A stretch of 22,885 nucleotides of DNA from the IMG/VR virus record IMGVR_UViG_3300020171_000137, positions 1-22,885 of that record. The stretch is one strand, 5' to 3'. Positions within the stretch are counted from its first letter, which is position 1. Each line of letters starts with the position of its first letter. Of the stretch, positions 1-22,885 are shown in pieces. Made by a program: the position numbers and the translations under genes. Origin of the DNA: a virus. A model generated the notes under the pieces. That model did not search any database. It was not told the origin of the DNA and was given only the letters and a program-made list of their open reading frames with translations.

Positions 1-785
1 TAATTATCTGTTATCCCCGCAGCATCGTTCATTTCAGTTTTGTATCTGTCTATTTCCGTACTGGTCAGTCCGAGAACTTTGAATAAATCCTCTCCACTTT
101 CTGCCGCCTGAGTTACCGCCGTTCTTAGTTTTAAGGTGGCGGCTGTTCCTGTGATACCCTTCTCACTTAAAGCCGCTAGGATAGCTACCGCATCATCCAT
201 CGTGATATTCAACTTCTCAAAGTGCGGGGCTAATCTGGTTAATAGAGTACCAAAATCCGATAAGTCCACTAGCGTGTTTTTAGTCAGCCATGTGAACTTA
301 TCCAATTCTCTTGAAGTCGTGGGAATTTCCTTCCCGAATAGTTTGAACGCCGGCAGAAGCATATCAGCCATAACATCAGCACTTGACCCTGTGGCGTCTC
401 CTAAAGCATCGAAAGCCTTTGCGCTCTTCTGGATAACTTCCATATCTTTAATTCCCGCCCGTGCGAGCAGGTCAAATGTAGCCGCCACCGATTTTAGGGG
501 AAATGTTACATCGGTTGTAGCAAGTGCAAGGTCTCGCATATCCTTAGTGGTAACACCAAGAGTTAGAGCCGTCTGCCCTAATTCAGCGTTCATTTTCTTG
601 GCGTCAGAGACCATCTTCATTCCCGCAATGCCAACGGCTGTAAATGCCACGCCGACAGCCTTCAGTTGCCCCTGGATTTTCTGCATAGAATCCTTGACGT
701 GCTCTTGGGTTTCCTTCAGGGACTTATCAAATTCTGACTTATCTACCCCTAGTTTTAGAAGGGCATCGCCTAAGCTCAAAGGCAT
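1..785 (-). CDS. Tape measure protein, N-terminal part (runs off the left edge)
   Basis: Read from the ATG at 785, the protein begins MPLSLGDALLKLGVDKSEFD and stays open for about 261 codons to the window edge. A ribosome site GAGGTGG lies just upstream. The N-terminal helix, followed by stretches such as AELGQTALTLGVTTKDMRDLA and LLARAGIKDMEVIQKSAKAF, has the pattern of the TP901 tape-measure core: an alpha-helical region with repeated A/G-rich helices. Tape measure proteins set tail length and help eject DNA through the tail. The position directly after the tail tube and frameshifted chaperone genes is the usual one in siphoviruses. The length and C-terminal domains are not visible. Confidence 0.88.
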   Translation of the reverse strand, partial: MPLSLGDALLKLGVDKSEFDKSLKETQEHVKDSMQKIQGQLKAVGVAFTAVGIAGMKMVSDAKKMNAELGQTALTLGVTTKDMRDLALATTDVTFPLKSVAATFDLLARAGIKDMEVIQKSAKAFDALGDATGSSADVMADMLLPAFKLFGKEIPTTSRELDKFTWLTKNTLVDLSDFGTLLTRLAPHFEKLNITMDDAVAILAALSEKGITGTAATLKLRTAVTQAAESGEDLFKVLGLTSTEIDRYKTEMNDAAGITDN

Positions 786-862: not shown

Positions 863-1060
863 ATGAATGATTTCATTATCTGGCTATACATACTTGGTGG
901 TTTAGGAGGAATTTGTCTGATTGTACTTTCCATACAGGCTATGCTCGCTCAAATAAAAACCTGTCAGATTCTAGAGGAAATTGTTAATTCTGGTGCTATA
1001 CCTAAAGTATTGGAGATGCGGACTAAAAAAGTAGAAGAAGATAAAATATCTACTGGCTAG
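863..1060 (+). CDS. Small single-pass membrane protein, inserted against the late genes
   Basis: This 65-residue protein has one strongly hydrophobic stretch at about residues 3-29, then a charged tail (KTCQILEEIV, MRTKKVEEDK). I do not recognise a family. It is likely real because AAAAGGAGGT precedes the ATG by a good distance and a promoter (TTGCAT-17-TATAAT) sits just upstream. It lies between the tail chaperone and tape measure genes but on the opposite strand. Its stop overlaps the end of the frameshifted chaperone by 11 bases. This layout fits a 'moron', an independently expressed cargo gene. An effect at the host envelope, such as superinfection exclusion, is only a guess. Confidence 0.65.
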   Translation: MNDFIIWLYILGGLGGICLIVLSIQAMLAQIKTCQILEEIVNSGAIPKVLEMRTKKVEEDKISTG

Positions 1061-1675
1061 GTTTTACCACCTTTAATTTACCACCCAATTGCCCGAACAA
1101 TACATCTTCAGAAACAACAGTATCCTGATTGTAATTTGGAGTGTGTTTTCCCGACATAGCGGCATTGACCCGCTCTTTCCTATCTGCCAGTTTATCGACC
1201 ATGAGCGCCAGCATTTCACCAGTCCAATTCTCAACGATGTATATTGGATCCAGATGCCACTCTGTTAGGAGGAATTCAAATATCTCACCTATCGAGCTAG
1301 TTTCCCCAGTACCCCGGTCAGGCTTCCGACTAAAGGGAATGCCACCGCCATCACCGCTTCAATCGCCTTTGCCAGTTCCGCTTCCGTAGCAACAGCCTCA
1401 ATGTCGTCCCTTGATAGATTCTTAGCGTAACCAAAGAACAAGTCCGCCATCTCATCAGGCATTGACACTAACATGGCCTCTACAGCCACCTCAAAGCCCT
1501 TGGGGTCATCCGTAGTTGTATTGGCATAGGATGGCAATCTGCCAATTAATTTAGATAGTTTCTTGCGCCATTCCCTTGCGTCTTTGATTACAAGGGGAAG
1601 GATGGCATGTTCCATCCCTCCCAGAATTACAGTTATAGATGCTCTTAAAAGTTTGTCTTCTTCAGTCCGTTCCAT
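1050..1675 (-). CDS. Tail assembly chaperone, long form made by -1 frameshift
   Basis: The short reading frame (1289-1675) overlaps a second open frame at -1 that has no credible start of its own and ends at TAG 1050-1052. At 1331-1337 the minus strand reads CCCTTTA in the phase C CCT TTA, a correct X XXY YYZ slippery heptamer. Slippage there would give 115 residues of the short form plus 93 of the second frame, about 208 residues. The extension reads IGEIFEFLLTEWHLDPIYIV then ENWTGEMLALMVDKLADRKE, a W/Y-rich segment like the downstream halves of G/GT-type chaperones. By analogy with lambda gpG/gpGT, the long form would load tail tube subunits onto the tape measure. The location between tube and tape measure genes supports this. 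Confidence 0.75.
1289..1675 (-). CDS. Tail assembly chaperone, short form (gpG-like)
   Basis: This is a 128-residue protein, mostly helical and acidic at the start (MERTEEDKLLRASITVILGG), read from an ATG at 1675 after an AGGAGA ribosome site. It is the zero-frame product of the chaperone locus and ends at TAG 1289-1291, 14 codons after the slippery heptamer. In siphoviruses the short form is made in large excess over the frameshifted form and both coat the tape measure protein during tail assembly. Sequence similarity of this family is low, so the call rests on position, size and the overlapping -1 frame. Confidence 0.75.
   Translation of the reverse strand: MERTEEDKLLRASITVILGGMEHAILPLVIKDAREWRKKLSKLIGRLPSYANTTTDDPKGFEVAVEAMLVSMPDEMADLFFGYAKNLSRDDIEAVATEAELAKAIEAVMAVAFPLVGSLTGVLGKLAR
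1331..1337 (-). promoter_or_regulatory. -1 ribosomal frameshift heptamer CCCTTTA
   Basis: On the minus strand the codons are TTC CCT TTA GTC, so CCCTTTA is phased as C CCT TTA. After a one-base slip the ribosome reads CCC TTT AGT and enters the downstream frame, which is open to 1050. A small imperfect hairpin (GTCGG-AAGC-CTGAC, with one G-U pair) begins immediately after the heptamer. It is weak, and I do not claim that it acts as the stimulator. Confidence 0.65.
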
Positions 1676-1696: not shown

Positions 1697-2494
1697 TTAG
1701 ACGGCTACGACTGCCTGATTGCTGAAACTTGCCAGCACGCCAGTTGCGGCAGACGTTACCGTGCCGAGTGCATAGTATAGTTTCAATACCGCAGCCCCTG
1801 CAATAGCTGCACCATTAACCGTTAGTTTGATAGTATCCGCACCATCCAAAGCCGCCACGCTAAATGCCCTTACTACACCAGCTTCCGTAAACCAGAACTC
1901 CAGGTGCTTGCCTACGGGGTCTGTCATATTAGCCGTGAACTGCGCATGGATGAAAGTACCACCGGGTGTCTCAGCATGGGTTGTCGCGCCAACAATCAAT
2001 GTCGGGGCAACTGCCGCCGCATCCGTTAGAGAACCAAACACTCCTACATTAGAGACGAGTGCCGAGAAAGTCATCGGTATTACGGACACCTCGCCCTTCT
2101 TGTACGGAACACCGACTTCCCCAGTCGGATTAACTGCGGTGAGAACGATTACACGGGGTAAACCAGCAGGATTTATACCTACCAATGTCAACCTGTGTGA
2201 TTGGAGTACCCCACCGCCTATTGTGGTGATTGTGGTACTCGTTGCCACAGCTCCGGGGATAGCCGCCGCCAAGTCAGCCATTGCGCCCTCAGCTACGTTT
2301 AAGGTAACGTCAACCTCCTGGTCTATCAGACGCCGTATGATTGTACCTTCCTCCTCCTCCACCTTGATATTCGCATTACTTGACCTGACTGTCATGCTTA
2401 CGCCGTCAACAGTGTAGCCAATAACTCTAGCAAGTACCCCAATACCTAATGTAATTGAGGCATCGCCAACCAGAACATTTGCTACTGTACCCAT
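1697..2494 (-). CDS. Major tail tube protein, long paralogue with C-terminal extension
   Basis: This 265-residue protein starts MGTVANVLVGDASITLG with ribosome site AGGAGGTTAAGATATG. Residues 1 to about 158 align along their whole length with the neighbouring 165-residue protein: shared MGTVANVLVGDA, GTIIRR.IDQEVD, TGEVG.P.KKG and FSALV.N.GVFG. The extra ~105 residues resemble an Ig-like or bacterial surface beta domain (FIHAQFTANMTDPVGKHLEF, TIKLTVNGAAI). Tail tube proteins stack as hexamers around the tape measure, and C-terminal Ig-like domains decorate the outside of several phage tails. A tube role is inferred from genomic position between the terminator and chaperone genes and from the beta-rich, Gly/Thr/Val composition. 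Confidence 0.75.
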   Translation of the reverse strand: MGTVANVLVGDASITLGIGVLARVIGYTVDGVSMTVRSSNANIKVEEEEGTIIRRLIDQEVDVTLNVAEGAMADLAAAIPGAVATSTTITTIGGGVLQSHRLTLVGINPAGLPRVIVLTAVNPTGEVGVPYKKGEVSVIPMTFSALVSNVGVFGSLTDAAAVAPTLIVGATTHAETPGGTFIHAQFTANMTDPVGKHLEFWFTEAGVVRAFSVAALDGADTIKLTVNGAAIAGAAVLKLYYALGTVTSAATGVLASFSNQAVVAV

Positions 2495-2518
2495 ATCTTA
2501 ACCTCCTATAATTTCATT

Positions 2519-3016
2519 TTACGAATCTGTAATAGTGCCAAAAACACCCGCATTATCCACAAGTGCAGAGAAGGTTATCGGCACAACAGAGACATCGCCT
2601 TTCTTGAAAGGAATCCCCACTTCACCCGTCGAGTTCACACGATTCAATACGATTGTGCGAACAAACGTGGCCGTTGGTCCTATCCCTACAAGAGATAGTG
2701 AATATTCCTGTAAAGCACCACCACCCAGAGTAATTGCAGGGGCTGCTACGGTTGACCCTGGCAGTGCTATCGTTAGATTATCCAGCGTGCCCTCAGCGAC
2801 ATTGATTGTCAGGTCAACTTCCTGGTCAATTATTCTGCGGATAATTGTGCCGTTAGTCTCTTCGACCTTGATGTTTGCGAAACTTGTCCTGACGGACATG
2901 GTTACACCGTCAATCGTAAACCCGATTGTTACCGGACCCGCTGGATGCGGCGGAACTGACAGTGAAGTGACTGTTAATACGGCATCCCCTACTAATACGT
3001 TTGCAACTGTACCCAT
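2519..3016 (-). CDS. Major tail tube protein, short paralogue
   Basis: This 165-residue beta-rich protein has start ATG 3016 after TTAGGAGGTAAACATT. It is the upstream partner of a tandem duplication: nearly every block of the long paralogue's first 158 residues is present here, and it ends at FGTITDS where the long form continues into its extra domain. It lies 24 bases before the long gene in the same direction. It is probably the bare tube subunit, with the long version mixed in or used at one end of the tube. Which of the two is the main subunit cannot be told from sequence. Confidence 0.75.
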   Translation of the reverse strand: MGTVANVLVGDAVLTVTSLSVPPHPAGPVTIGFTIDGVTMSVRTSFANIKVEETNGTIIRRIIDQEVDLTINVAEGTLDNLTIALPGSTVAAPAITLGGGALQEYSLSLVGIGPTATFVRTIVLNRVNSTGEVGIPFKKGDVSVVPITFSALVDNAGVFGTITDS

Positions 3017-3028
3017 AATGTTTACCTC

Positions 3029-3442
3029 CTAACTGATTTTTATTTCGAAGAATGCTAAAACTCTAAAGTAACCTGTTATGTCATCAATCAAATCTTGTCC
3101 CTGTACCTCCTCTCTTGCGCTCTTGATATAGTAAGTGTTTGGCGCTATCACGACTGCCACATTTTGTATACCCTGAAGTGCCGAATATGTGGCGAGATAT
3201 AAACTTCTTGCCCCAATTGAATTATTATGCCAACAATCAATTTGAAAACTAGGACTCACCAATGGAGGGATATAAGGCGTGCTTGAGCCACCACGCACAA
3301 ATAGACCGATAGCCGGAAGTTTCGTATTCTCTGGTAAGCGTGGACAAAACACTCTCGGCAAGTCAGGGGCAAAGAACGCCACAATATCAGCGTTTCCTAT
3401 AAGATACTTTCTTACTACTGCATTTACATCGGGCATCGTCAT
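3029..3442 (-). CDS. Tail terminator / tail completion protein (DUF3168-like)
   Basis: This 137-residue protein has the length and layout of tail terminators: an N-terminal helix (PDVNAVVRKYLIGNADIVAF), a core strand around FQIDCWHNN, a helix SLYLATYSALQG, and a final strand region GYFRVLAFFEIKIS. DUF3168 proteins cap the tail tube and help attach it to the head. It is the last gene before the tube genes in transcription order, as expected. The start ATG at 3442 has a GGGAGAATTAAA leader; an ATG two codons in is an alternative. Confidence 0.75.
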   Translation of the reverse strand: MTMPDVNAVVRKYLIGNADIVAFFAPDLPRVFCPRLPENTKLPAIGLFVRGGSSTPYIPPLVSPSFQIDCWHNNSIGARSLYLATYSALQGIQNVAVVIAPNTYYIKSAREEVQGQDLIDDITGYFRVLAFFEIKIS

Positions 3443-3511: not shown

Positions 3512-4099
3512 ATGTTTAATATTGGTGACATCGCAATAGGTAATTCAATCGGCAAGCAAGGTAGCAAGGGACGCGGCAAATATATCTGGCATGCCTGTGA
3601 GAAATGCGGTAAGGAAAGATGGGTTTATTTAAGTGACCTTAAAAAGGGTATCAGTAAAATTTGCCAACGCTGTAATATCACCATGACTGGTCGCCCTCAT
3701 AAACACTTCACATGGAGTGAGGCGAGGAAAAATTCTATCAGAGGTGACCGCAATCCCAAATGGAAGGGCGGGAGAACTAAGTGTCTCGGATATATCTTCA
3801 TACATTTACAACCTGATGACTTCTTTTATTCAATGACTAAAGATAATGGCTATGTTAGAGAGCATCGCCTAGTCGTGGCGAAAGCATTAGGTAGATGTCT
3901 CCAATCTTGGGAAATAGTCCACCATAGGAACGGTGTTAGAGATGACAACCGAATTGAGAACCTTCAAATCGAACTTGTCAATAATCATAATCAGATAACC
4001 ATCTTGGTGCGTAAAATTAAAAAACTACAAGAGGAAAATAGACTTCTGAAATTAGCGAATAAAAGGCTCATTTCAGATGCCTCTTTATGCGTTCGGTAA
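3512..4099 (+). CDS. HNH homing-type endonuclease inserted in the late genes
   Basis: The 195-residue protein has a zinc ribbon at the N-terminus (C29xxC32, C51xxC54), a NUMOD3-like segment (RGDRNPKWKGG, residues 77-87), then the HNH fold: GYVREHRLVVAKALGR with H118, IVHHRNG with H137/H138, and DDNRIENL with N146 and N150. A coiled coil of about 30 residues (158-187, KIKKLQEENRLLKLANKRL) ends it, which is unusual for such a short enzyme and suggests dimer formation. These enzymes cut a specific DNA target and copy themselves into it. It sits on the opposite strand between the gp10-like and tail terminator genes and overlaps the end of the former by 32 bases. It has its own promoter and ribosome site. 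Confidence 0.88.
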   Translation: MFNIGDIAIGNSIGKQGSKGRGKYIWHACEKCGKERWVYLSDLKKGISKICQRCNITMTGRPHKHFTWSEARKNSIRGDRNPKWKGGRTKCLGYIFIHLQPDDFFYSMTKDNGYVREHRLVVAKALGRCLQSWEIVHHRNGVRDDNRIENLQIELVNNHNQITILVRKIKKLQEENRLLKLANKRLISDASLCVR

Positions 4100-9950: not shown

Positions 9951-10880
9951 TTAAACCGCTGAATCGTAGCAACGCACCCAGACAATGCCTTTGCTGACAA
10001 TGTCCGCTATCGGGATGCTTCCGACTTTGGTACTCGCCACTCCAGCATTGGTAACATATCCGACTGATTCAGGGTTAGCAGCGGCAATTAGAGCCGTGAT
10101 ATTCCCCGCAACCTGAGCGACATTCAGCCTCCAGGCGTGCATAGATGCAGGTGGGCCGGCAAGTATTGCCTGATGCTGTCCAGCAAAAACTACCCTAGCG
10201 TCAGTTTGAGTAGTCCCCGCCCAAACACCACCTTCAAAAGGAACGATGATGTGACCAGCCTTCAGAATATTTTGAGCATCCACATTTATCCATGAGCCAA
10301 AGTTATAGAGATGCCCAGTCGTGTTAGCAGTAAGATGCCCTTCATGATATCCACTAAGACCCTCGGAAGCACCGCCATTGAGAGTAGCTAACATGGATTT
10401 GCCGTAGCCACCACTAACTACAACAGCATTGTACATAGCCAGCGCAGCATCCACTGTCGGGTCAAAGTGAACCTTAACGGCGATAGTGTCCGTGTTGCCA
10501 CCAGTTATAATACCCAGGGCATAGCCAAAGGGCAGTTGAGTGGCTATACTGCTAATCTTGCTGACAACGCAGGTGGTCTTATTGATAAACAACTCATCGC
10601 CACCAGCTACGGCACTATTGCCAGCATCATCTCTGGCGTAGACATCTATTACCCAAATTCCCTCGGTGTCTACGGCAATCAGGTCTGTCCCAAGCACCTC
10701 AGTCTTGAAAGCAACCCCAACTATCCTTCCGCATACTACGGGCAAACCTTTTGTAACTAGAGAGCCAGCGTGGGTCAACTCACTGGCCAAGAATGTGACA
10801 TGTCTACCTTCGTAGGTAGAAGAAATTTCGTCTCCAGCAGTCAGCGCATCTGCTACTGGATAAACTCCAAATGTTGGCAT
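9951..10880 (-). CDS. Decoration-type protein (DUF2190-like) with extra C-terminal domain
   Basis: This protein is 309 residues. Residues 1 to about 145 belong to the same family as the two proteins encoded just upstream: EISSTYEGRHVTFLASELTH, LVTKGLPVVCG, VDTEGIWVIDV, FGYALG and IAVKVHFDP. This pattern fits DUF2190-type capsid decoration proteins. Residues ~146-309 form an extra domain, rich in Gly and aromatics (EGHLTANTTGHLYNFGSWIN, GHIIVPFEGGVWAG, GSIPIADIVSKGIVWVRCYD). The ribosome site is AGGAGGTAAACA. The extra domain may be exposed on the capsid surface. The assignment of family is from memory of motifs. Confidence 0.6.
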   Translation of the reverse strand: MPTFGVYPVADALTAGDEISSTYEGRHVTFLASELTHAGSLVTKGLPVVCGRIVGVAFKTEVLGTDLIAVDTEGIWVIDVYARDDAGNSAVAGGDELFINKTTCVVSKISSIATQLPFGYALGIITGGNTDTIAVKVHFDPTVDAALAMYNAVVVSGGYGKSMLATLNGGASEGLSGYHEGHLTANTTGHLYNFGSWINVDAQNILKAGHIIVPFEGGVWAGTTQTDARVVFAGQHQAILAGPPASMHAWRLNVAQVAGNITALIAAANPESVGYVTNAGVASTKVGSIPIADIVSKGIVWVRCYDSAV

Positions 10881-10911
10881 TGTTTACCTCCTAATATTAG
10901 ATTGTGCGGGA

Positions 10912-11346
10912 TTATGGGGTCGGGACTATGGGACATTCGCCGTGAACCTTGACAGCAATAACAAGTGCTGCGCCTTGTCCAGTGTGCGGCTGAAGTACCC
11001 ACCCGAAACTCTTGTTACCGGCTGCATTGCCATCAACGAGTAAACCAGCATTAGTTATCCACACGTGTTGACCTACTATCATGGCGGCAGCCGCCGTAAC
11101 GGAAAGATACCAGACACCCTCTGTGTCGATTGTAACCCAGTCAGTCGCTGCTAATGCAGAATGAAAAGAGACGCCGACTAGGGATGCGACACCAGTACAT
11201 AGAACCGGCTGCCCTTTGTTCACAAGATTATCGGCTGCCTGATTGACGTGGATTAGATTAGATTCGAGAACGGAGACATGGCGACCCTCATAGGTTGAAG
11301 AGACTTCGTCGCCTGCATCTCCTGCTACACAAGTTTTATAAGGCAT
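10912..11346 (-). CDS. Decoration-type protein (DUF2190-like), second paralogue
   Basis: This 144-residue protein has the shared core: EVSSTYEGRHVSVLESNLIH, LVNKGQPVLCTG, VTIDTEGVWYLSV, VGQHVWIT, FGWVLQP, VIAVKVHGE. It lacks the C-terminal extension of its neighbour. The ribosome site AGGAGGTTAAAATT precedes the ATG. It is probably a trimeric or pentameric capsid-surface protein stabilising the shell. The copy number and exact binding site are not visible. Confidence 0.6.
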   Translation of the reverse strand: MPYKTCVAGDAGDEVSSTYEGRHVSVLESNLIHVNQAADNLVNKGQPVLCTGVASLVGVSFHSALAATDWVTIDTEGVWYLSVTAAAAMIVGQHVWITNAGLLVDGNAAGNKSFGWVLQPHTGQGAALVIAVKVHGECPIVPTP

Positions 11347-11390
11347 AATTTTAACCTCCTAAGTAAAATATTTGTTTTGATTATCGTGAT

Positions 11391-11477
11391 TTACCTCCCG
11401 TTGACAGCATATGGATTGTAGTAGGCATTAACTGCAACTTCTGGTGTTTGTGCGCCGCCTAATCCGTTGCCCACCAT
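11391..11477 (-). CDS. 28-residue micro-protein between decoration paralogues
   Basis: The ATG at 11477 comes one base after the previous stop, with AGAGG six bases before it. The peptide starts MVGNGLGGAQTPEVAVNAYY and ends NPYAVNGR. Its composition looks like structural-protein coding sequence, not random DNA, and it fills an otherwise empty 132-base gap. It could be a remnant of a longer gene. The evidence is modest. Confidence 0.35.
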   Translation of the reverse strand: MVGNGLGGAQTPEVAVNAYYNPYAVNGR

Positions 11478-11478
11478 G

Positions 11479-11943
11479 TTATGCCTCTATGTCTGTGGTG
11501 TAGAACCAGAACGGCCACATCCAATGAACTTTAACGGCAATAACCTGTGTAATGGGAGCACCTTGTCCTGGATCGGCAATGGGTTCAAGCGCATAGCCAA
11601 AAATAGCGTATGAGGTTGACCACTCATCATAGATCACCCCCGTGAAACTAATATAAAGAACTTGACCTACTACAATAGTGCCGAAGGAATTAACTCCGGT
11701 ATTGGTTACTGATAAGCGCCATATACCCTCAGTATCTACAGGTATTGAATCCGTTGCCGCTGTTGCTGTTTTGAGTGCTACTCCGGCGCCATCAAAGAAG
11801 GCTACGGGATCACCTTTTTGAACTAGGCCACCACCAGGATGAATTAGACTGGATGCTTCGATGTTTACATGCCTACCCTCGAAAGTGGAAGAGATTTCAC
11901 GTCCGGCTACAGCTTCAAAAGGATTAGTATAAGGATTAGCCAT
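11479..11943 (-). CDS. Decoration-type protein (DUF2190-like), first paralogue
   Basis: This 154-residue protein is the first of three tandem relatives in transcription order. It has REISSTFEGRHVNIEASSLI, GLVQKGDPVAFFDGAGVALK, VDTEGIWRLSV, FGYALEP and VIAVKVHW. It ends in an aromatic-rich tail (MWPFWFYTTDIEA) that the other two lack. Ribosome site AAGGAGGCGAAGC lies inside the end of the 47-residue gene. The role is inferred as capsid decoration, from its place between the protease-scaffold and capsid genes. Confidence 0.6.
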   Translation of the reverse strand: MANPYTNPFEAVAGREISSTFEGRHVNIEASSLIHPGGGLVQKGDPVAFFDGAGVALKTATAATDSIPVDTEGIWRLSVTNTGVNSFGTIVVGQVLYISFTGVIYDEWSTSYAIFGYALEPIADPGQGAPITQVIAVKVHWMWPFWFYTTDIEA

Positions 11944-12081: not shown

Positions 12082-13803
12082 TTACCTCCCACTGACGGCG
12101 GTCTCTAATTGCTTATCCGACCACTCCGGATGCATCTTTTTCCAACTCTCCCTAAGAGCCGCTTGGTCTTTTTCGGGATTGACAGTTGTAGTGCCCATAC
12201 CTTTGACCTTTCCGGCTTCTGCCAATGCGCTGACATAATCCTTTTCGGACTTGACAGCTTCAGCTATGCCTTCACCAGTCTCGGCATCTTTGAACCGCTC
12301 AATCAATCTCGCCTTCGACGGCATTGGCAATTCGGATTCGCTTACGGCTTTGTCTATTACGGACTTGGCTTCAGCTTTCCTTTGTGCCTTTTCCGACTCG
12401 GTAATCTTGGTTTTGAGTCCATCTCGCTCTGTGGTAAGTGTAGTTATTTGTCCTTCTAATACTGTGATTTTTTCTTCTTGTTCTCCCAATTTCTTTGCCT
12501 CCTGTAATGTTTTGGCTTTAACCTCAGTCTCGATAATCTTAACCAGGTCAGGACGCCGTTCCTTTAATGCCTCTATATTTACAAGGTCAACATCATTCTC
12601 TCGGTCAACCTCATACATTGTAACTGTGCCGCCAGCACCCGCTTCGGTTACAAAATCCACTGAACGCACTCTTATAATGCGTTCGATTATGTTGGTTTTA
12701 ATGCCTTCTATAGCGCCTTTAATAGCCGAGCCGATAGCGTTAATAGAAACACCCATCTCCTGTAGCATATTCTGGTCTCTTAGTTGCGCTAGTTTCGCTT
12801 GTAACCATGGTTCAACGACTACCGCCTCGCCAATGACTTGACCTTTATCGTCTACATGGACATTTTTGAGGGTAGCAACCCAATCCTTTATCGACCGCTC
12901 AGGACGGGCTTTATCCTCCGCGTCTGTCGGATGGTCAGCGTACATTTTAACGCCTTCAAATAGTTTATAATCCCGTTTCAGAGTTTCAGGGGAGTAAAAT
13001 CTTTCCTTTGAACTATTGAGTCCGGGCTTAATCACAACTATTGTGGCAATACCCTTCGATGATACAATCGCCTCTGAGAGTGAACTGTAATCAGCCAGGA
13101 TAGTGCGACTTTCAGATTCTTTAACCCATCGGGGTATGTCTTCATCTGCAATATCAAGATTCCGATATTCAGTACGGATTTTACTTTTTACAGAGGTTGA
13201 TTCCGCAATGGGGATTTCTACCCGTTGCCCCCTAAAGCCGCCCGGTGAGAGAGCCGCAGATGCACGTCCTAGTTGTGTCTTGGTAACTTTCTTATCAAGT
13301 GATTCCCACAGTAATAGTTTCCACGTGGCAGGTGCTTCTGCATTTGGAGTATACGCAAAAGCCTCTTTAGGAAACTTCACGCCGTCCTCAGTCTTCATAA
13401 GTTCCTGTTCTTTTAACCAAGCAAGAGTGGCGGTAGCTTCTTTGATAGCCTCTTTCATCCTTCCCTCATCGGGGATTTCAGAAGATAGAAGCTCCTGGCA
13501 GAGTTCCACTATTTTCTTAATTCTGCCGGCATCCGAAGCGGCGTTACGTTTACCCGCCTCTTGAATTATCTCTGCGTAAATAGGTTGTAATGACATAGGC
13601 ACCCCCTTAGATTCTTTAGCGACCCACTCATCGTCTTTCTGTTCGTATTTAGTTTTAACAGCCGCCCACGCAGTCGCATTTGCCTTACCTTCATCGCCTT
13701 TGTATTGAACTATGGCGGCATTAAAAGCGGCGACAAATATCTCGATAGCGTGTTTAGGTAAACCTTTGATTCTCTCTGGCGGATTCTCTACTGTATATGG
13801 CAT
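12082..13803 (-). CDS. ChaB domain - prohead protease - scaffold fusion
   Basis: The protein is 573 residues from ATG 13803, chosen because AGGAGGTATTTAT precedes it. Residues 1-60 match ChaB (NPPERIKGLPKHAIEIFVAA, then AWAAVKTKYEQKDDEWV). Residues ~138-230 hold a segment FPKEAFAYTP...TKTQLGRASAALSPGGFRGQ. Residues ~250-400 look like a herpes-type/HK97-type prohead protease, with candidate catalytic H291 (ADHPT) and S353 (MGVSINAIG), then RVRSVDFVTEAGAGG, the end typical of phage proteases. Residues ~430-490 are coiled coil (LGEQEEKITVLEGQITTLTT), typical of scaffold, and the end (MHPEWSDKQLETAVSGR) is charged. It would assemble the prohead and then cleave scaffold and capsid. The catalytic assignment is an inference from motif and spacing. 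Confidence 0.75.
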   Translation of the reverse strand: MPYTVENPPERIKGLPKHAIEIFVAAFNAAIVQYKGDEGKANATAWAAVKTKYEQKDDEWVAKESKGVPMSLQPIYAEIIQEAGKRNAASDAGRIKKIVELCQELLSSEIPDEGRMKEAIKEATATLAWLKEQELMKTEDGVKFPKEAFAYTPNAEAPATWKLLLWESLDKKVTKTQLGRASAALSPGGFRGQRVEIPIAESTSVKSKIRTEYRNLDIADEDIPRWVKESESRTILADYSSLSEAIVSSKGIATIVVIKPGLNSSKERFYSPETLKRDYKLFEGVKMYADHPTDAEDKARPERSIKDWVATLKNVHVDDKGQVIGEAVVVEPWLQAKLAQLRDQNMLQEMGVSINAIGSAIKGAIEGIKTNIIERIIRVRSVDFVTEAGAGGTVTMYEVDRENDVDLVNIEALKERRPDLVKIIETEVKAKTLQEAKKLGEQEEKITVLEGQITTLTTERDGLKTKITESEKAQRKAEAKSVIDKAVSESELPMPSKARLIERFKDAETGEGIAEAVKSEKDYVSALAEAGKVKGMGTTTVNPEKDQAALRESWKKMHPEWSDKQLETAVSGR

Positions 13804-13828
13804 ATAAATACCTCCTAAAATTGGATAA

Positions 13829-13855
13829 TAAAAAAGCCACCCCGAATGAGTGGCT
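13829..13855 (-). terminator. Intrinsic terminator (second of two)
   Basis: On the minus strand AGCCAC, a nine-base loop, and GTGGCT are followed at once by a run of T (TTTTT, then ATTAT). The hairpin is at 13835-13855. It lies 25 bases before the ribosome site of the ChaB fusion gene. No T-run exists on the plus-strand side. Confidence 0.8.
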
Positions 13856-13860
13856 ATAAA

Positions 13861-13903
13861 ACAAAAAGAAGAACCGATAAACATTTCTGCCTATCGGTTC
13901 TTC
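13861..13903 (-). terminator. Intrinsic terminator (first of two), perfect 12-bp stem
   Basis: GAAGAACCGATA (13868-13879) pairs perfectly with TATCGGTTCTTC (13892-13903) around a 12-base loop. On the minus strand the hairpin is followed by TTTTTGTTTT. It ends the upstream operon, 28 bases after the stop of the gene at 13931. Confidence 0.85.
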
Positions 13904-22368: not shown

Positions 22369-22885
22369 TAACGGACACGAAACCTATCATGCTGCCACTA
22401 GACCTGCATAGTATCTTTGCTCAAAGACCACGGGCGACAGGAAACCAAGTCCTGGCTGCAAGCGCTGCCGTTTGTAGAATATCTCAATATACTCTGTGAT
22501 GTCCCGTATAGCCTCCTGTCTGGTCCTGTACCGGCGGTGATGAACAAGCTCCTGCTTGAGCGTCCCCCAGAAACTCTCCATCGGCGCATTATCATAGCAG
22601 TTCCCTTTACGGCTCATCGAGGCCTTCAGCCCGAACCGTTCCAGGATATTTCTGTACTCATGCGAGCAATACTGACTGCCTCTATCTGAATGGTGAATCA
22701 GCCCCTTGGCCGGGCGTTTGGCTGCCACAGCCTTAAACAAGGATTGACTGACCAGATTCCTGGTTAAGCGCTCTCCCATGGCATATCCAACAATATCAGC
22801 GGAAAAGAGATCCTTATGAGCAGCTACGTACAGCCAGCCTTCGTCAGTCGGCACGTAGGTTATATCACTCACCCATACCTTATTC
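22351..22885 (-). mobile_element. IS3-family insertion sequence, partial
   Basis: The 3' end of an IS3-family element. The proposed edge is TGTGACGTCGGATGTCAATA at 22351, beginning with TG as IS3-family ends do, 36 bases outside the transposase stop. The other end and the target duplication lie beyond the window, so the exact edge is provisional. Confidence 0.7.
22387..22885 (-). CDS. IS3-family transposase OrfB, C-terminal part (runs off the right edge)
   Basis: About 165 residues of the catalytic domain are visible. The DDE triad can be read: D in KVWVSDITYVPTDEG, D in LIHHSDRGSQYCS, and E in NAPMESFWGTLKQEL, the D-D-35-E order of IS3 elements. The end FYKRQRLQPGLGFLSPVVFE is also typical. 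The upstream part, normally joined to OrfA by frameshift, is not in the window. No stop or frameshift disturbs the visible part, so the element may be intact. Confidence 0.9.
   Translation of the reverse strand, partial: NKVWVSDITYVPTDEGWLYVAAHKDLFSADIVGYAMGERLTRNLVSQSLFKAVAAKRPAKGLIHHSDRGSQYCSHEYRNILERFGLKASMSRKGNCYDNAPMESFWGTLKQELVHHRRYRTRQEAIRDITEYIEIFYKRQRLQPGLGFLSPVVFEQRYYAGLVAA

Follow-up and report, generated by a model that had tools for sequence, protein, structure and literature searches.

An uncultured tailed phage very probably (at about 95%, on our estimate) harbours, in its late tail operon, a programmed -1 ribosomal frameshift, by which one locus would yield both a protein of 128 residues, G, and a G-T fusion of 208 residues. 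The stretch of DNA analysed, hereafter the window, comprises 22,885 nucleotides, and its comparison with related loci, at the level of sequence, brings together both reading frames, a slippery heptamer and its phase, signs of selection on a Shine-Dalgarno-like (SD-like) stretch, preferential pairing of a downstream stem with its own partner arms, and the gene order. On this basis the shift appears to be of the lambda G/GT type, an ordinary phage device here met in a new uncultured family, such that the lambda-type chaperone frameshift would be extended to a family whose G and T proteins are unmatched in 50,697 phage records. What lifts the case above the routine is the conserved three-part signal together with a natural series of site variants: the 87 distinct sites described below vary in heptamer, SD-like stretch and stem, and could serve as a comparative set for the efficiency of bacterial -1 frameshifting.

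The operon lies on the minus strand and comprises the genes for terminase, portal, capsid, tail terminator, two Ig-domain proteins, G/T and the start of the tape measure protein; no tRNA gene was found in the window. The zero-frame gene G (1289..1675, minus strand), for which we suggest a gpG-like role, starts with ATG at 1675, ends with TAG at 1289-1291 and encodes 128 residues, an assignment based on the reading of open reading frames (ORFs) and on the alignment of the window with 37 relatives. As the earlier note had proposed, a second frame overlaps it in -1: on the minus strand the T frame is open from 1358 to 1050, and the T part proper, supported by an alignment of its own, again of the window with 37 relatives, runs for 95 residues from the heptamer to the stop codon at 1050-1052 (1050..1337, minus strand). 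The heptamer itself, C_CCT_TTA at 1331..1337 on the minus strand, is the sole in-phase XXXYYYZ within the G/T overlap of the window; its phase, C CCT TTA, and the product of a slip at this point, 208 residues by computed translation, both agree with what had been noted before. Further along the operon follows the N-terminal part of the tape measure protein (3..785, minus strand; phrog_28, tail length tape measure, E 2.4e-14), whose gene runs past the window edge. The tape measure gene is likewise downstream of G/T in 10 of 10 scanned relatives, chosen from 20; in L010, one of the other ten, the next long ORF begins differently. Directly upstream of G stands a protein matching an Ig-domain family (1697..2494, minus strand; phrog_2175, E 1.7e-10), for which its position suggests a role in the tail, and farther upstream the tail terminator (3029..3442, minus strand; phrog_123, E 3.2e-9). 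The span 1697-3016 on the minus strand holds two similar neighbouring proteins, both matching phrog_2175 and probably the outcome of a duplication.

The G/GT role is the best reading of the two proteins by virtue of position, overlap and frameshift. The G of the window gave no significant family (best phrog_5400, E 0.023) and no Pfam match, and the T part gave no family match of note. Among the relatives of G, 8 of 38 matched phrog_1613 (best E 3e-4) and 4 matched Phage_TAC_15, both counted at E up to 0.1; an unnamed family, however, matched 10, and an F-box model as many as Phage_TAC_15, so that the matches to tail assembly chaperones are weak and equalled in strength by unrelated families. 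A structure model of G reached a pLDDT of 85.7; a search of the PDB with it returned no fold match, and its matches among viral folds were weak (best E 0.008, none at 0.001 or better), 7 of the 50 listed bearing the name tail assembly chaperone.

The relatives were collected by patterns drawn from G, in its N-terminal and middle part, and, separately, by T-domain patterns, the site itself not being used, with the proviso that the first search (11 loci) additionally used a pattern ending just short of it. In this way the site could be read in 156 loci, of which 87 are distinct when 180 nt are compared; two of the searches were limited to their best 80 relatives, out of 99 and 86 respectively, the most distant being left out, and seven loci ending before the end of G, L076 among them, do not enter the counts. 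Apart from the figures for representatives or for 53 clusters, the statistics take no account of the tree. Over 50 different IMG metagenome numbers are represented among the loci, besides one metagenome-assembled genome (MAG) of the Dehalococcoidales, one contig of which carries the only relative found in a genome collection; among 393 genomes of the class to which this MAG belongs there is a single match, which is that same MAG. Ten proteins scanned from the contig matched capsid, ChaB, ParB, methyltransferase and MCM, or nothing, which makes the Dehalococcoidales no more than a putative host. The window being a metagenomic virus record, one might suspect in its two frames a broken gene or an error of assembly, an explanation that is hardly credible and is refuted by the relatives, in which the same arrangement recurs at 87 distinct sites from all these sources.

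Taken alone, the sequence of the window is only suggestive, since, when the codons of G in the 70-nt overlap were resampled synonymously (20,000 trials, window alone), some in-phase XXXYYYZ arose in 29% of the trials and CCCTTTA at the same place in 2.1%. It is the conservation in relatives that renders the heptamer significant: under a model taking the sequences as independent, the 38 distinct proteins of the first set give a log10 P of about -52, and 28 representatives sharing less than 60% identity one of about -38. An in-phase CCCTTTN stands at 83 of the 87 distinct sites (67 with A, 10 with C, 5 with G and 1 with T in the last position), the remaining four being two TTTTTTA and two CCCCCTC, so that 85 sites possess some in-phase XXXYYYZ; counted by the 53 clusters, the figures are 41 CCCTTTA, 7 CCCTTTC, 2 CCCTTTG, 0 CCCTTTT, 2 TTTTTTA and 1 CCCCCTC. 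The heptamer is also kept where the encoded residues vary. Ahead of the proline, 70 of the 83 CCCTTTN sites encode Phe, 4 Ala, 3 Leu, 3 Ser, and 1 each Asn, Arg and Tyr, and these 13 exceptions to Phe imply that the protein varies while the first C is kept. The proline codon is CCT in all 38 of the first distinct proteins, about a quarter being expected from codon use, and the codon that follows it is TTA, TTG, TTC or TTT, a choice which allows Leu to turn into Phe without loss of TTT, as has happened, with TTT retained, at 11 sites.

The exceptions are of two kinds. In L090 and L161 a canonical heptamer, TTTTTTA, occupies about the same place, which we read as turnover of the slip site, not as its loss. 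In L102 and L113 (2 of 87 sites, 1 of 53 clusters) both frames are kept with CCCCCTC in place of the heptamer, the SD-like stretch (GGAGGTG and GAGGTG) and the downstream hairpin being retained; the conservation of the heptamer is therefore strong, not absolute. The earlier note had proposed an alignment of homologous loci, and in this comparison the phase of CCCTTTN held at the 83 sites, while at the two of L102 and L113 the heptamer was lost with both frames kept, which is the very case that the note had named as refuting and which is confined to one cluster. Its central proposal, a -1 frameshift at CCCTTTA in a chaperone locus, gains from these counts as it does from the SD-like element, the stem and the tape measure gene. 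As a separate observation, in L042, L044 and L045 gene G stops one codon past the heptamer, which in all three is CCCTTTC, not CCCTTTA.

T could, in principle, be produced without any shift if ribosomes initiated internally and the SD-like stretch, which does lie upstream, acted as their binding site. In 26 of 38 sequences the T frame does contain an ATG, GTG or TTG within its conserved region or ahead of it, in 25 of the 26 exclusively past the heptamer, and 5 of the 87 sites have one upstream, in every case at -27. The earlier note had remarked that the second frame has no good start, and the window bears this out: no ATG, GTG or TTG occurs from the opening of the frame to the conserved EW motif, which speaks against an internal start at any of these three codons. 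Upstream of the heptamer 82 of the 87 sites are likewise without such a codon, and, internal initiation leaving the conserved in-phase heptamer and the stem without explanation, we regard it as highly improbable. A corollary is that the T part would probably escape gene finders that need a start codon.

A second doubt concerns the place and nature of the shift, which might instead be due to slippage of RNA polymerase or to a ribosomal slip at GGGAAAC. The GGGGAAAC tract, 25 nt downstream of the heptamer, invites this reading; it had, rightly, been set aside earlier as lying in the wrong phase, GGGAAAC at 1306-1300 on the minus strand being out of phase. Among the relatives, GGGAAA is found within 63 nt downstream in just 5 of 87 distinct sites, at one of them in the phase of the heptamer, and GGGAAAC was accordingly rejected as the slip site. 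Polymerase slippage generally needs a homopolymer of a certain length, and none that long is present. As the conserved site is, moreover, the in-phase heptamer, a shift by such other means has very little probability. We retain the ribosomal slip at the heptamer, to which two further elements of the locus relate.

The first of these is the SD-like stretch, GGTGATGGCGGTGGC in the window (1341..1355, minus strand, upstream of the heptamer), where it is of moderate strength; in many relatives it is AGGAGGT-like. When pairing with the 3' end of 16S rRNA is scored in 9-nt windows, those starting at -23 to -21 show a mean of about -7.3 kcal/mol over the 87 sites, compared to about -4.2 kcal/mol on synonymous resampling. 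In terms of clusters, 32 of 53 reach -8 kcal/mol or better at -25 to -17 (11.6 expected), 10 of 53 do so at -16 to -9 (3.5 expected), and 41 of 53 at either position (14.5 expected); none of 300 synonymous resamplings of the 53 clusters gave a mean pairing as strong. A control region farther upstream displayed no such trough of pairing (z -2.6 to +4.1). By these comparisons the SD-like stretch looks selected.

The second element is a predicted stem-loop (1287..1323, minus strand), which starts 7 nt past the heptamer and ends just beyond the stop codon of G. In the window, the 60-nt segment beginning with the stem folds at about -11 kcal/mol, and the stem is of moderate strength, at rank 51 of 87. 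Overall folding energy downstream is barely below that of controls, three downstream windows having mean z-scores of -0.4 to -0.6 and a fourth one of 0.0, where three control windows gave -0.3 to +0.2, and RNAalifold detected no covariation among the window and five relatives. Hairpins starting 4-10 nt past the heptamer are, on average, stronger than shuffled ones (-13.3 vs -10.4 kcal/mol). A stem in one fixed register was tried and rejected: in the best of 36 registers it formed in 33% of 85 sites vs 23% with swapped partners, two rows without the anchor motif having been dropped. Because the fixed register gave so little, the register was allowed to vary, and with all 87 rows the 14 nt from +4 were paired, in any register, with the region coding for S-I-G-E/G in T. 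For arms picked after the hairpins had been viewed, own partners then paired at -9.18 kcal/mol and swapped ones at -7.60 kcal/mol (sd 0.26), with none of 2000 swaps as good; over the 53 clusters, and for the same arms so picked, the values are -9.48 and -7.52 kcal/mol, again with 0 of 2000. Two control pairings in the arm-swap test exhibited no difference. The better pairing of own partners implies that the arm sequences vary while their pairing tends to persist, with registers differing between branches, and in this sense the downstream stem, too, looks selected.

Turning to mechanism, we infer from these comparisons that the shift occurs, along with its rate, its tRNA steps and the chaperone roles of its products. 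The majority of ribosomes would translate gene G to its stop, giving the 128-residue chaperone, and a minority would slip back by one base and continue in the T frame to give the 208-residue G-T fusion, whose predicted junction reads AFPL and then SRKPDR. In the slip, the tRNA-Pro in the P site would move from CCT to CCC and the tRNA-Leu in the A site from TTA to TTT, aided by pairing of the SD-like stretch with 16S rRNA behind and by the stem-loop ahead. By analogy with lambda, G may bind the tape measure protein, and the tail tube protein may be recruited through the T part; the roles of G and GT are drawn from lambda (PMC5009743).

With lambda G/T (gpG/gpGT) the locus shares overlapping tail genes, an in-phase XXXYYYZ close to where G ends, and a tape measure gene that comes next. 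The heptamer differs, being CCCTTTA here and GGGAAAG in lambda, the latter verified to be in phase in NC_001416, and a further distinction is the SD-like stretch and stem that appear to be under selection in the family of the window. In SPP1, the products 17.5 and 17.5*, analogues of G and GT, involve a putative -1 shift at UUUUUUC (PMC6316719). A -1 shift on a pyrimidine heptamer is thus common to both; the SPP1 motif is UUUUUUC and that of the window CCCUUUA, two of the relatives having TTTTTTA. In E. coli, according to PMC4066793, C_CC.U_UU.A is one of 18 under-represented motifs that shift at more than 0.10% without stimulators, C_CC.U_UU.C is singled out for high-level shifting, and among C_CC.U_UU.N the UUY forms, not UUA, are among the most efficient. 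That study shares the motif with the window, its tests having been made on reporter constructs and not on a phage locus, and the main position of the SD-like stretch here (-25 to -17) lies on or outside the distal limit of the 6-17 nt searched there. The same heptamer, CCCUUUA, has been proposed, along with a downstream structure, for the -1 shift between CP and RdRp of Giardiavirus, which is a eukaryotic dsRNA virus, and according to PMC8230311 its authors' own sequences do not support that site. As regards phages, no tail locus with CCCTTTA was found in print, judging mostly by titles, and the 2004 survey by Xu and others may include one; in the spellings tried, CCCTTTA is absent from the available text of the PRFect article (PMC10885494), the GeneTack study (PMC3711429) and PMC5009743. 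The CCCTTTA of a review on SPbeta (PMC8270828) belongs to an attachment site.

One could go further and suppose that what sets the frameshift rate in this family is not a fixed site but a signal of three movable parts, these parts (the last base of the heptamer, an SD position near -22 or -12 and the distance to the stop of G) trading off against one another, and that in the CCCCCTC branch P-site slippage on the run of C replaces the two-tRNA slip. This we hold to be doubtful, though conceivable. A weaker SD in CCCTTTC loci was considered and dropped, the mean pairing being hardly different (-10.0 at 10 CCCTTTC sites, -10.7 at 67 CCCTTTA sites), and this near equality speaks against part of the supposition.

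Several other features of the window and its relatives deserve mention in their own right. The gap between the end of T and the tape measure gene holds an antisense ORF of 65 residues (863-1060, plus strand), membrane-like and equipped with an aggagg-type ribosome binding site, which looks like an extra inserted gene; L052 and L010 have different antisense membrane-like ORFs in a similar place, and many relatives have next to no space between T and the tape measure gene. Amid the tail genes, and on the opposite strand, there is an ORF for an HNH endonuclease (3512-4099, plus strand; Pfam HNH_3). Three ORFs at 9951-11943 (minus strand) have in common a G(D/R)E(I/V)SSTYEGRHV-like start and are perhaps repeated capsid cement proteins, the first one scanned matching Pfam Phage_cement_2. 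Upstream of the capsid gene, an ORF of 600 residues (12082-13884, minus strand) carries a ChaB domain near its start, and a gene with such a domain is also present on the Dehalococcoidales MAG contig. Finally, at 22387-22884 (minus strand) there is a transposase-like frame with an integrase core (rve), cut at the end of the window, which is the edge of the virus record.
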